Origin: Prevotella sp.
GTDB taxonomy: Bacteria; Bacteroidota; Bacteroidia; Bacteroidales; Bacteroidaceae
Assembly: GCA_017619755.1 (NCBI GenBank)
Contig: JAFZRU010000017.1
Coordinates: 124,001-188,000 of the forward strand
Reading direction: 5' to 3'
DNA length: 64,000 nucleotides
Shown here: positions 14,985 through 19,147 of the stretch, in pieces
Layout of the letters: each line of letters begins with the position of its first letter
Numbering within the stretch: position 1 is the first letter of the stretch
Position numbers and translations under genes: made by a program
The notes under the pieces: model-generated
The model's database searches: none
What the model was told of the DNA's origin: nothing
Seen by the model: only the letters and a program-made list of their open reading frames with translations

Positions 14985-17138
14985 ATGAAGAAATTATTAA
15001 CTTTGTGTGCCATCCTCGCCATGTGCCTTACCGCTTTTGGCCAGGAGACCGTGTTGTTTGATGCCGACGGCACGTATGGCAACGGGGCCATTTTGTCCTC
15101 GGAGAACACCGTACTCGAATTAGGCAACGACCGTGCGCTGACCAATTACACCTTAGGGTTGGCTGCCACGAAAGCCTACTGCTCCAACCTCTTCGGCCAG
15201 AAGGTGATGGTGGAGAATACCGACACACACGAGATGGAAGAGAAGACCCGTGTGGTGTATGTCGTAGGCAACAACAACCCCAAGGACGGCGAACTGGACG
15301 GTGACGACAAAAGTACCGGAAACGGCTACAGTCCAGAGGGCGCGAACCTGCCCCAATCAGGCACCTACTACATGATCACCCCTGCCAAGCCGGGTCACAT
15401 CACAGCCTTCGTCATCCTCAATGCCAGCAAGTCGCTCTATGTGGTGAAAGGCAGCAATGGCGAGTGCCTCCCCGTGAGTGCCCTCACCCTCAAGGGTGAC
15501 GGAGCAGAGCCTGTGTCCGTGTCTCTGAACAACGATTTCACCATTGCCTCCAAAATGACGGGAACGTTGGAGTTCGACGTGGAGGAGGGTGAGACCTACT
15601 ACGTCTTCTGCACCGGCTCGAAACTCAGTTTCGGAGGATACAAGTTTGTGGAAGGCGAATCCACTCCGACCATCACAAAGGAGAGGGTGCTATTCGATGC
15701 CAATGGCACGTATGGCAACGGTGCCATCCTGACCTCCGAGAACACCGTTCTCGAACTGGGCAACGACCGTGCGCTGGCCAATTACACCATAGGGCTGTCG
15801 GCCACGAAAGCCTACTGCTCCAACCTCTTCGGCCAGAAGGTGATGGTGGAGAATTCTGACACACACGAGATGGAAGAGAAGGTTCGCGTGGTGTATGTCG
15901 TGGGTGTCAACAACCCCAAGGACGGCGAACTGGACGGTGATGACAAGAGCACCGGAGTCAGCTATTCCCCCGAAGGGGCGAACTTGCCGCAGTCAGGCAC
16001 TTACTACATGATCACCCCCGCCAAACCTGGACATATCACCGCCTTCGTCATCCTCAACGCCGGGAAGAATTTCTATGTGGTGAAAGGCAGCAGTGGCGAG
16101 TGCCTCCCCGTGAGCGCCTTTACTTTCAAGGGTGATGGTGCCGAGCCTACCGATGTGAAGATGAACGACGACTTCACCCTCTCCAGCAAGATGACCGGCA
16201 CCGTGGAGTTCGACGTTGAAGCGGGCGAGACTTATTATGTCTTCTGTACCGGTTCCAAACTCAGCTTCGGTGGATATGAGTTTGTGGAAGGTGAAGAGCC
16301 TCCCGTACCCATTGTCGATACCCGTGAATTGGTGCTCTTTGATGCCGAGGGAGTTTACGGCAATGCCGCCGAACTGACCTCCGAGCACACCAAATTGGTG
16401 TTGGGCAACGACCGCGCCACCAAGAACTACGACGTGAAACTGGCTGCCACGAAAGCTTACTGCTCCAAACTCTTCGGCCAGAATGTGATGGTGGAGAACA
16501 CCGAGACGCACGAGATGGAAGAGAAGACCCGCGTGGTGTATGTCGTGGGTGGCAACAATCCCTTGGACGGTGAACTGGACGATGAGGACAAGAGCACCGG
16601 TGTCAGTTACAGCCCTGGTGGTTACAGGATACCGCAGTCGGGTACTTACTATAAGATCACCACTACGATTCCCGGACACATTACCGCTTTCGTCATTCTC
16701 AATGCCTCAAAGAATTTCTATGTGGTGAAGGGTAGCAATGCCGAGTGCCTGCCCGTGAGCGACCTCACCATCAAGGGCGACGGTGCCGCACCCGTCGATG
16801 TGACGCTGGGCGACGACTACACTCTCAAGGAGAAGACGACAGGCACCGTGGAGTTTGACGTGGTGGCTGGTGAGACCTACTATGTCTTCTGCACCGGCTC
16901 TAAACTCAGTTTCGGTGGATATGAGTTCGTCAGCGGCAACGGCGGTGAGCCGGAAGTTTTGCCGGGCGATGCCAATGGCGACGGTGACGTGAACATCACC
17001 GATGTGTCCTCCATCGTGGAATTTGTGCTTAGCGGAAAGGCGGCCTCCTTCAATTTCAAGAACGCCGATATCAATGGTGACGGAGATGTGAACATCACCG
17101 ACGCATCCGTCCTCGTGGGAATCATTCTCAACAATTGA
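14985..17138 (+). CDS. Secreted protein with three 212-residue repeats and a dockerin-like end
   Basis: 717 residues. A signal peptide (about 1-19, ending AFGQ) is followed by three tandem repeats starting near residues 21, 233 and 446. Each begins VLFDA-GxYGN and ends YYVFCTGSKLSFGGYxFV. Repeats 1 and 2 still share a 54-base identical DNA stretch (from 15165 and 15801, exactly 636 bases apart), so the duplication is recent or kept uniform. The last 60 residues form a dockerin-like calcium-binding pair (GDANGDGDVNITD and ADINGDGDVNITD). I do not recognise the repeat domain. It is probably a surface or extracellular protein; the dockerin may bind a partner or only stabilise the end. No neighbour explains its role. 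Confidence 0.85.
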   Translation: MKKLLTLCAILAMCLTAFGQETVLFDADGTYGNGAILSSENTVLELGNDRALTNYTLGLAATKAYCSNLFGQKVMVENTDTHEMEEKTRVVYVVGNNNPKDGELDGDDKSTGNGYSPEGANLPQSGTYYMITPAKPGHITAFVILNASKSLYVVKGSNGECLPVSALTLKGDGAEPVSVSLNNDFTIASKMTGTLEFDVEEGETYYVFCTGSKLSFGGYKFVEGESTPTITKERVLFDANGTYGNGAILTSENTVLELGNDRALANYTIGLSATKAYCSNLFGQKVMVENSDTHEMEEKVRVVYVVGVNNPKDGELDGDDKSTGVSYSPEGANLPQSGTYYMITPAKPGHITAFVILNAGKNFYVVKGSSGECLPVSAFTFKGDGAEPTDVKMNDDFTLSSKMTGTVEFDVEAGETYYVFCTGSKLSFGGYEFVEGEEPPVPIVDTRELVLFDAEGVYGNAAELTSEHTKLVLGNDRATKNYDVKLAATKAYCSKLFGQNVMVENTETHEMEEKTRVVYVVGGNNPLDGELDDEDKSTGVSYSPGGYRIPQSGTYYKITTTIPGHITAFVILNASKNFYVVKGSNAECLPVSDLTIKGDGAAPVDVTLGDDYTLKEKTTGTVEFDVVAGETYYVFCTGSKLSFGGYEFVSGNGGEPEVLPGDANGDGDVNITDVSSIVEFVLSGKAASFNFKNADINGDGDVNITDASVLVGIILNN

Positions 17139-17295
17139 TTTTTTCCAAGAGCAACACAAAGAATAAGTTGGTAAAAAACACGAATTATCACGAATTATAC
17201 GTTAATTCTGATGCACAGCAATTTATGAATAATTATATGGTAATTATATGTTGACAATCGTACCAAGTTATTTTTTCACTTTTTCTAAATAATAT

Positions 17296-17331
17296 AGAAA
17301 TCCCAGTCCGTCACGGCGGACTGGGATTTCT
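17296..17331. terminator. Strong hairpin after the triple-repeat gene
   Basis: A 15-base perfect stem (17297-17310 with 17317-17330, plus one closing pair) with a 6-base loop lies between the plus-strand gene and the minus-strand small RNA, so it may stop transcription from both sides. Confidence 0.8.
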
Positions 17332-17357
17332 TGAACATGGGGCTTCATCACCCTCTA

Positions 17358-17469
17358 TAAAACAAGGGCGTCTCTCCCGAGACGCCCCCTTAGTGCCCTC
17401 TGTCGGATAGATATGGCATTAACTCTCATAGAGGGCGAAGCCTTTGCCATATTTTGTCGGGGTGTTTGA
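17358..17469 (-). ncRNA. Candidate small RNA of about 112 nt, pseudoknot-capable
   Basis: This interval has a full transcription unit and no gene. On the minus strand a good promoter (17475-17506) leads into about 112 bases ending in an intrinsic terminator. The body contains two complementary pairs in pseudoknot order: ATATGGCA (17452-17445) with TGCCATAT (17418-17411), and GCCCTCT (17436-17430) with AGAGGGC (17401-17395). An alternative fold puts two small hairpins (GGC-TTC-GCC and CTCT-ATG-AGAG) inside the first stem. The upstream cvfB operon has its own terminator at 17519-17545, so this is not simply a 3' UTR. I do not recognise the family; it does not resemble the small SRP RNA or tmRNA. 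Confidence 0.6.
17364..17390 (-). terminator. Intrinsic terminator of the small RNA
   Basis: On the minus strand GGGCGTCTC, loop GGGA, GAGACGCCC (17387-17366), then TTGTTTTAT. The nine-pair perfect stem followed by a T-rich tract is a classic rho-independent terminator. Confidence 0.8.
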
Positions 17470-17474
17470 TGCTG

Positions 17475-17506
17475 CAAAAATATGCAATAATTCTCCATCA
17501 TCCAAA
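17475..17506 (-). promoter_or_regulatory. Promoter of the small RNA
   Basis: On the minus strand TTTG (17506-17503), a 20-base spacer and TATTTTTG (17482-17475), a close match to the Bacteroidota consensus. The predicted start is near 17469. Confidence 0.75.
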
Positions 17507-17518
17507 TAATAAGGAAGG

Positions 17519-17545
17519 AAAAAACGCCGAAGTCCACATTTCGGC
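17519..17545 (-). terminator. Terminator of the antiporter-lolD-cvfB operon
   Basis: On the minus strand GCCGAA, an 8-base loop, TTCGGC, then G and six T residues, 25 bases after the cvfB stop. Confidence 0.75.
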
Positions 17546-17570
17546 TACACTTTTTTGATGGAAATGGATG

Positions 17571-18407
17571 TCACACCAGTCGCAGCCCGTCCTCTTCGAT
17601 GACGAGCACCCTTCTGCGGTAGAGGTCTCCCACTGCCCGCTTGAAGGTCTTCTTGCTCACTCCGAACACCTCCTTGATGGTTTCTGGGTCTGTCTTGTCG
17701 CCGTAGGGACACTTGCCCCCGTGGGCGATGAGGTAGTCGGTGAGCGTGTCGGCGAAGTCGAGGGTCTGCTGGCGTCCGGAGGGTTGGAGCATGACGTCGA
17801 TTTTCCCGTCCGGCCTCACTTGGTCGATGTACCCCCGGAGCCTCTGGCCCACACGCACCTCCCGGAAGATTTGGTTGTCATAGACCAGCCCCTGGTGGGC
17901 GTTATCCACAATGACCTTGTAGCCCATGTCGGTTTTCTGCCACACCAGCACATCCACCGCCTCGTTGTGATAGTAGTCGGCTGGCTCGTCGCTCAGGTAT
18001 CGCTCCACCTTGGCGGAGGCCATGATGCGGTAGCTTTCCTCGTCGATATGGACATGGACGATGTGGCGGCTTCCCTTCTCCATTTTCCGCTTCTGCTCTC
18101 CGAAGGGGCAGAAGAGGTCTTTCATCAGCCCCCATTTCAGGAAGGCCCCGTATTGGTTGACCCATGCCACCTCCAAGTAGGCAAACTCGCCCACCTTGGC
18201 TAAAGGTCGCTCCGTGGTGGCCACCAAGCGCTCGTCTTGGTCGAGATAGACGAACACCTCGAGCGTGTCGCCGGGTTTCGCCCCTCGGGGGATGTATCTT
18301 GTGGGCAGGAGGATGTCGCCCTCTTCGCCGCCGTCGAGGTAGAGGCCGAAGTCCACCTCTTTCTTCACTTGCAGTTGGTTGTAGTTGCCTAAATGGATGG
18401 TGCTCAT
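17571..18407 (-). CDS. cvfB: CvfB/YitL-like S1-domain RNA-binding protein
   Basis: 278 residues. The arrangement matches CvfB: S1-like OB folds in the first two thirds (about 1-60 [13 protein letters not shown]...GDILLP; 65-135; 140-215 with [17 protein letters not shown]) and a C-terminal winged-helix segment ([27 protein letters not shown]). Family members bind RNA and influence expression of other genes; targets here are unknown. The start overlaps the lolD stop as ATGA, so it is the last gene of an antiporter-lolD-cvfB transcript. The close presence of a small RNA gene downstream is notable but no functional link can be shown. Confidence 0.9.
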
Positions 18408-19147
18408 ATCGTTGTTGTTTGGGGTTGAACAGGTTGCTCGGGTGTCTCCTCCTGGCTTGGTGCTTGTGGTGTCTCCTCCTGGCTTGACGTTTGCGGTGTC
18501 ACGATGACGCCGTCGTTGAGGCGGATGGTGCGGTCGGTGATGGCAGCCAGACCCTCGTCGTGGGTGACGATGATGAAGGTCATGCCGTATTTGTCGCGCA
18601 GGTCGAAGAAGAGTTGGTGCAGCTCCGCCTTGTTCTTGCTGTCGAGGCTGCCGGAAGGTTCGTCGGCGAGGATGACGTATGGCTCGTTGACCAAGGCGCG
18701 TGCCACGGCCACCCGCTGCTTTTCGCCGCCGGAGAGTTCGTTGGGTTTGTGATGCGCACGGTCGGAAAGCCCCATGAACTGCAGCAGCTCCTCCGCCCGG
18801 GCCTTGGCGGCGGCAGTGCTCTTTCCCGCGATGTATGCCGGAATCATGACATTCTCGATGGCGGTGAATTCCGGGAGCAGTTGGTGGAATTGGAAGACGA
18901 ATCCTATGTGGCGGTTGCGGAAGTCGGACAGTTGGTTGGTGGACAGGCGGCTCACGTCGTTGCCGTCGATGAGCACCGTGCCGCCGTCGGGGCGGTCGAG
19001 TGTTCCGATGATTTGCAGCAGCGTGGTCTTGCCGGCGCCGCTCGGGCCGACGATGCTCACGATCTCGCCCTTGTTGATGTGAAGGTCGATGCCCTTGAGC
19101 ACTTGCAAGTCGCCAAAACTCTTGGTGATGTTTTCTGTCTTGATCAT
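18404..19147 (-). CDS. lolD: LolD-type ABC transporter ATPase
   Basis: 247 residues from the ATG at 19147; a longer upstream frame lies over the antiporter and is rejected. Motifs: Walker [25 protein letters not shown], signature [15 protein letters not shown], Walker [13 protein letters not shown], and THDEGLA. The order and the ELSGGE context fit the lipoprotein-releasing LolD/MacB subgroup. The usual domain ends near residue 218; a proline/glutamine/glutamate-rich tail follows that contains a duplicated SQEETP unit, coded by 19-base repeats at 18441-18459 and 18468-18486. The membrane partner LolC/E is not in the window. It starts 11 bases after the antiporter stop. Confidence 0.88.

Follow-up and report, generated by a model that had tools for sequence, protein, structure and literature searches.

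The gap that follows cvfB on the minus strand of a 64,000-nucleotide stretch of Prevotella sp. DNA (hereafter the window) holds signals for the start and the end of transcription with no gene between them. This raises the question of whether these signals delimit an independent RNA gene, as the original prediction had it, and what such an RNA might do.

Each part of the proposed unit was located where it had been placed. The transcript of the preceding genes, lolD-cvfB, ends at a terminator of its own at 17519-17545 of the minus strand (stem 17526-17545, T run 17519-17525), and the unit of promoter, body and terminator spans 17359-17506 on the same strand. Its promoter is composed of a -33 element TTTG (17503-17506), assigned by comparison of TTTG and TTG across 19 loci, a spacer of 20 bases, and a -7 element TATTTTTG (17475-17482) that follows TAnnTTTG, the consensus cited in PMC7366714. 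Based on the positions of promoter and terminator and on 18 homologous loci, the RNA gene was assigned to 17359-17470; the transcript is expected to be about 110 nt long, with a 5' end near 17470, as placed from the promoter position, and a 3' end in the T tail. The body contains two interlocked complementary pairs of 8 and 7 bases. In the order of transcription, it comprises the 5' strand of stem S1, ATATGGCA (17445-17452), the 5' strand of stem S2, GCCCTCT (17430-17436), loop L2, ATGAGAGTTAA (17419-17429), the 3' strand of S1, TGCCATAT (17411-17418), which lies within an invariant segment, loop L3, CTATCCGAC (17402-17410), and the 3' strand of S2, AGAGGGC (17395-17401). The unit closes with an intrinsic terminator (17359-17387), in which a nine-pair stem joins 17379-17387 to 17366-17374 around the loop GGGA and is followed by the tail TTGTTTT (17359-17365).

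The gene directly upstream, cvfB (17571-18407, minus strand), encodes a protein with an S1 domain and a winged helix (Pfam S1_2, 1.2e-26; CvfB_WH, 9.6e-21). It is preceded by a gene for a LolD-like ABC transporter ATPase (18404-19144, minus strand; ABC_tran, 1.5e-37), whose best NCBIfam match is LolD, below the LolD cut-off. A terminator scan returned 6 sites versus 1.9 in shuffled sequences, ARAGORN found no tRNA or tmRNA in the window, and the Bacteroidota-type promoter of the RNA lies outside the scope of a simple sigma-70 scan. On the far side of the unit, a palindromic hairpin at 17296-17331 (15 pairs, loop of 6, T-rich flank on the minus-strand side) is probably a terminator between the RNA gene and the plus-strand gene at 14985-17138. 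The product of the latter gene has a signal-like N-terminus on visual inspection and ends in a type I dockerin domain (Pfam, 1.2e-10); it also contains three internal repeats, each about 200 amino acids long (shifted copies match at 78% over 367 amino acids and 75% over 205 amino acids).

To find out how far this RNA is distributed, related genomes were searched by sequence, by pattern and by covariance model. A blastn search of 100 relatives yielded two other homologues, and a core pattern with up to three mismatches occurred at 29 places in 27 of 299 genomes of the genus, eight of which were true loci on inspection, including the locus in the window. A covariance model built from four loci, our own among them (R1), gave strong matches (E <= 5e-8) in nine of the 299 genomes, again including our own, and the RNA is single copy in each of these nine carriers. 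The next best match had an E-value of 5e-4 and was part of a weak tail that takes in another 84 genomes with E-values no higher than 0.1, from which two stretches were inspected and found to resemble ordinary terminators. The pattern GCCATATCTATCYGN{1,4}GAGGGC was then applied to a collection of 84,980 species and retrieved 21 stretches, 18 from Prevotellaceae or Prevotella and three from unrelated organisms; 14 of the 18 carry RUG isolate names, which we take to stand for rumen uncultured genomes, and one carries a sheep omasum name. A second model built from nine loci (R2) scored these 18 stretches and our own copy at 69-97 bits, recognised none of the three non-Prevotellaceae stretches at E <= 0.001, and gave one extra weak match (23 bits) on the opposite strand of locus L063. 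Since eight of the 18 stretches were already among the R1 matches, the homologues comprise 18 further loci in public Prevotellaceae genomes, or 19 with our own. Ten of the 19 were fetched only via the pattern, which demands GCCATATCTATC and GAGGGC, so that for these ten the invariance of exactly those letters follows in part from the search itself. Applied to 301 family genomes, R2 found our own copy and three matches in other genera (E 9e-6 to 3e-5); the core segment is absent at the matched position in all three, and they were taken as ordinary terminators. A viral contig collection contained neither a match to the core pattern nor a relative of cvfB. Judged by sequence, the set of matches at this locus is more than chance would give.

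Conservation across the 19 loci is concentrated in the body of the RNA, upstream of the terminator and outside it. Mean pairwise identity of the 43-column core is 0.867 over all 19 loci and 0.859 over the 17 loci with full-length cvfB, as compared with 0.479 at the fourfold sites of the same 17 cvfB genes, in which third positions agree at 0.516 and the proteins at 0.743. The nine R1 loci, for which exact letters were not demanded, have a core identity of 0.782 next to 0.361 in the leader and 0.299 in the spacer; the corresponding values over 19 loci are 0.374 for the leader, 0.647 for the S1 5' strand, 0.381 for loop L1, 0.350 for the spacer and 0.591 for the terminator. Identity is highest in the S1 3' strand together with L3 (0.947 over 19 loci, 0.897 over the nine R1 loci). 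Both GCCATATCTATC and GAGGGC are identical in the nine loci found by R1 and also in the other ten, where the pattern required them. Columns 43-62 of the core, which lie outside the pattern demand, show an identity of 0.755 over 19 loci, 0.613 over the nine R1 loci, where three rows are shifted in the alignment, and 0.915 over the ten pattern-fetched loci. The S2 5' strand appears as GCYCTC in all 19 loci. Some form of the S1 5' strand is found in 16 of the 19 inside the otherwise variable leader, with the variants TATGGT (L063, L075), AATGGC (L066, L082) and TATAGGC with one extra base (L070). A CCC run in the same leader (17459-17462, minus strand) recurs in 15 of 19 loci and might pair with the G run of the terminator, which would make it a possible antiterminator.

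The flanking signals are retained along with the core. A TAnnTTTG box lies upstream of the core in all 19 loci, preceded by TTTG or TTG at a distance of 18-20 bases in 14 of them and of 24 bases in one, with neither in the remaining four. Paired letters occupy 98.2% of the cells of the terminator stem, and seven of its nine pairs have changed on both sides. As sequence features, a promoter of its own and an intrinsic terminator are thus both present, as would suit a stand-alone small RNA. Promoter, core and terminator are very probably one unit under purifying selection.

No match to Rfam 15 was obtained at the gathering threshold for the window or for eight loci, our own included, which is what the prediction of no known class had led one to expect. 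Permissive scans of window positions 17100-17620 and of the stretches of L072 and L078 gave sub-threshold matches only. Among these, BTnc231 matched 17361-17527 of the minus strand with 16.1 bits versus a gathering score of 80.4. Matches to NrrF and Aar over 17174-17347 fall on the opposite strand, stem from the palindrome at 17296-17331, and were rejected. No account of an RNA following cvfB in Prevotella turned up in an abstract-level search of the open-access literature. With conservation, promoter, covariation in the terminator and the absence of an Rfam match all pointing the same way, the proposal of an independent RNA gene outside the known classes stands at the level of sequence.

The fold of the body is less uniform. 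S1 is formed by AUAUGGCA and UGCCAUAU and S2 by GCCCUCU and AGAGGGC, and the two interlock. The resulting H-type pseudoknot is possible in 16 of the 19 loci, where L1 measures 7-9 nt and L3 measures 10 nt. S1 cannot form in L062, L074 and L078, which keep GCCATATCTATC nevertheless, and needs a bulged base in L070. Among cells with letters, 97.3% are paired in S1; the value for S2 is 93.2% in the alignment with three shifted rows and 98.4% in the model alignment of nine. S1 is part of the best nested fold in 11 of the 19 loci, S2 in five and neither in three, so the two stems are of similar strength. Compensatory change, which had been proposed as the test in aligned relatives, is found in the terminator stem; across the 19 loci no pair of S1 or S2 has changed on both sides, and G-U type changes affect two pairs of S1 and four of S2. 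The RNAalifold consensus replaces both stems with a small local hairpin (GCC-UCU/AGA-GGC), whose pairs are nearly invariant, so that covariation cannot separate it from S2; the hairpin is kept as an alternative fold. When 17345-17490 is folded simply for minimum energy (z -4.2), the core pairs with bases beyond the terminator; as those bases are not conserved, this fold was set aside. The predicted pseudoknot capability draws support from 16 loci with near-constant loops and is weakened by the three loci without S1, the missing covariation and the preference of RNAalifold for another hairpin. An H-type pseudoknot of S1 and S2 is plausible on these grounds.

As to genomic context, 18 of the 19 loci have cvfB immediately before the RNA in the same orientation, with 45-131 bases from it to the -7 box; in just three of these 18, our own included, does a simple scan detect a comparable hairpin with a following T run in the gap between the two. 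The sole locus with the RNA (1145-1225) away from cvfB is L076, which has purL downstream and another gene upstream, within the stretch available. Across the genus, cvfB is present in 227 of 299 genomes and the RNA in nine. The RNA is absent from 20 non-carrier cvfB neighbourhoods, a set that takes in almost every top-scoring cvfB match from genomes lacking the RNA (G148, at a contig edge, was passed over, and the stretches L084 and L090 are only 659 and 953 bases long), and two of them fall inside the carrier clade. One empty site (L083, genome G103) has a cvfB 84% identical to that of the window and purL 157 bases past the cvfB stop, with no RNA in between. In a tree of 37 CvfB proteins, including 17 carriers with full-length cvfB (L070 and L076 were left out), one clade with support 99/98 unites 16 carriers with the non-carriers G103 and G217; the carrier L082 is weakly placed outside it. 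The presence of the RNA changes four times on this tree, three of the changes being forced by well supported branches, and one gain followed by losses fits. The RNA would have passed down mainly by vertical descent, together with the lolD-cvfB locus, within a single clade of rumen-type Prevotella. Its rarity (nine of 299) and the two cvfB lineages without it inside the carrier clade mark it as dispensable. The S1 5' strand is missing from L074 and L078, and both fall next to the RNA-less G103 in the tree; this fits, and does not show, that S1 matters.

The RNA probably regulates something; that it is switchable or binds a protein, as the original prediction proposed, has the standing of a suggestion. 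The explanation that we favour as a whole, with somewhat better than even confidence, is a stand-alone, trans-acting pseudoknot RNA that uses a contact segment to meet an mRNA or a protein. A single-copy gene would be transcribed from a sigma-ABfr-type promoter into an RNA of about 110 nt that ends at the intrinsic terminator. AUAUGGCA and GCCCUCU would pair with UGCCAUAU and AGAGGGC as an H-type pseudoknot, which we regard as reasonably probable. The invariant segment around GCCAUAUCUAUCCG would be divided between S1 and the third loop, and this same segment (around GCCAUAUCUAUC) may be the contact site of the trans-acting regulator. The S1 5' strand in the leader would serve as an internal lock on this segment and be displaced by the target.

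That the contact segment acts via base pairing with an mRNA is a tenable though tentative reading. The complement of the segment, GGAUAGAUAUGGCAUU, contains a start codon (AUG GCA), so the segment could pair with translation starts. A target scan for at least 14 of 16 matches to the complement, run in the nine carrier genomes with the own locus excluded, returned 20 sites for the middle stretch versus seven in the reversed control; nine of the 20 are in one genome (G277), and about four fall where a gene seems to begin, rplW in two of these cases. The rplW (L23) start was rejected as a target, as its pairing is similar in four carriers (-12.0 to -16.9 kcal/mol) and six non-carriers (-11.9 to -15.1 kcal/mol), a comparison for which the query found nothing in eight of 18 genomes. 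With the flanking stretches close to their controls (13 versus 11 and 19 versus 18 sites) and rplW pairing alike in non-carriers, the scan points to no shared long target; a shorter pairing or a protein partner may be involved. A more specific version appears rather improbable to us, namely a self-locked RNA in which the leader AUAUGGCA mimics a translation start and holds the anti-start UGCCAUAU until an mRNA start or CvfB opens it; if true, such a self-locked anti-start RNA would be a new class of regulatory RNA.

A protein that reads the same invariant segment is nearly as likely as base pairing. The invariant segment and the pseudoknot might bind a protein, perhaps CvfB, and act as a sponge or a feedback signal, a possible but doubtful account. 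The position behind cvfB in 18 of 19 loci and the S1 domain of CvfB speak for it, as does the invariance of the segment even where S1 of the RNA is lost, which suits recognition of the sequence as such. However, adjacency to cvfB is expected from vertical inheritance alone, most of the 227 cvfB-bearing genomes do without the RNA, and L076 carries it before purL with no cvfB upstream in the available stretch.

It is very unlikely that the leader AUGGCA starts a short peptide such as MAKTTPSMRVNAISIRQRA, in a dual-function or coding transcript. Among the 16 loci with this ATG, nine place it in frame with the core, for peptides of 18-36 amino acids, and RVNAISIRQRA is common to eight of those nine, but the other seven read other frames (2-26 amino acids) with much the same core DNA and three of the 19 loci lack such an ATG. 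The frame is thus kept in nine of 16 homologues, unlike that expected for a small protein. Identity at codon positions 1, 2 and 3 over 18 rows is 0.952, 0.988 and 0.947, the third no freer than the first, in an alignment where many letters are fixed by the fetching pattern. A conserved peptide is unlikely on this evidence.

A riboswitch or attenuator that controls the downstream gene, for example purL, is likewise very unlikely. H-type pseudoknots before terminators occur in riboswitches, and the Prevotella RNA resembles the pseudoknot riboswitches of the SAM-II, preQ1 and guanidine-III classes in having a compact predicted H-type pseudoknot close to a terminator; it differs from them in having no constant gene behind it and no Rfam match. 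In eight loci the start of purL is less than 700 bases past the core, and in L077 it is at about 2 kb, but each of the eight nearby purL genes has a TAnnTTTG box of its own that follows the RNA terminator, and in the window and seven other loci (L064, L066, L070, L072, L077, L081 and L082) a different or a convergent long frame comes next; L063, L075 and L079 have too little downstream sequence to judge. No conserved gene directly downstream in the same transcript was found, and with a varying downstream gene and a nearby purL that has its own promoter box, the RNA does not appear to be a riboswitch of its neighbour.

That the locus is merely a conserved terminator region, with the promoter and pseudoknot resemblance due to chance, is hardly credible, since the most conserved part is upstream of the terminator and separate from it, the promoter box is present in 19 of 19 loci and the preceding operon in the window has its own terminator, even though the two inspected stretches of the R1 weak tail look like ordinary terminators and most carriers show no other terminator between cvfB and the RNA in the simple scan.

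A stand-alone, trans-acting RNA would have counterparts among the intergenic small RNAs of Bacteroides (GibS, the FopS family and the BTnc RNAs). FopS has a transcription start site with a sigma-ABfr promoter and an intrinsic terminator (PMC11697453), and in GibS and FopS a conserved seed pairs with translation starts (PMC7366714, PMC11697453). As described, FopS is about 65-70 nt long, is present in 14 copies and has its seed single-stranded at the 5' end (PMC11697453), while the Prevotella RNA is single copy in nine genomes and has its segment inside a predicted interlocked fold. FopS has been deposited in Rfam (PMC11697453); the Prevotella RNA matches no family in the copy of Rfam searched, GibS and FopS included as far as that copy contains them. 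Two candidate structured RNAs from the human microbiome are said to be exclusive to Prevotella, mostly near uvrC (PMC8040213); this location sets them apart by description, and overlap with other candidates of that report is possible. Seen in this company, the RNA appears to be a new small-RNA family of an ordinary, familiar kind.

Prevotella are abundant in the rumen, where they degrade fibre, and in our judgement post-transcriptional control has been little explored in Bacteroidota other than Bacteroides. The family is ready for use, with 19 aligned members and a precise segment to mutate. It also offers a natural loss series, in which the S1 strand is missing in L074 and L078 and the whole RNA in G103, and L076 provides a natural test of whether the link to cvfB matters.
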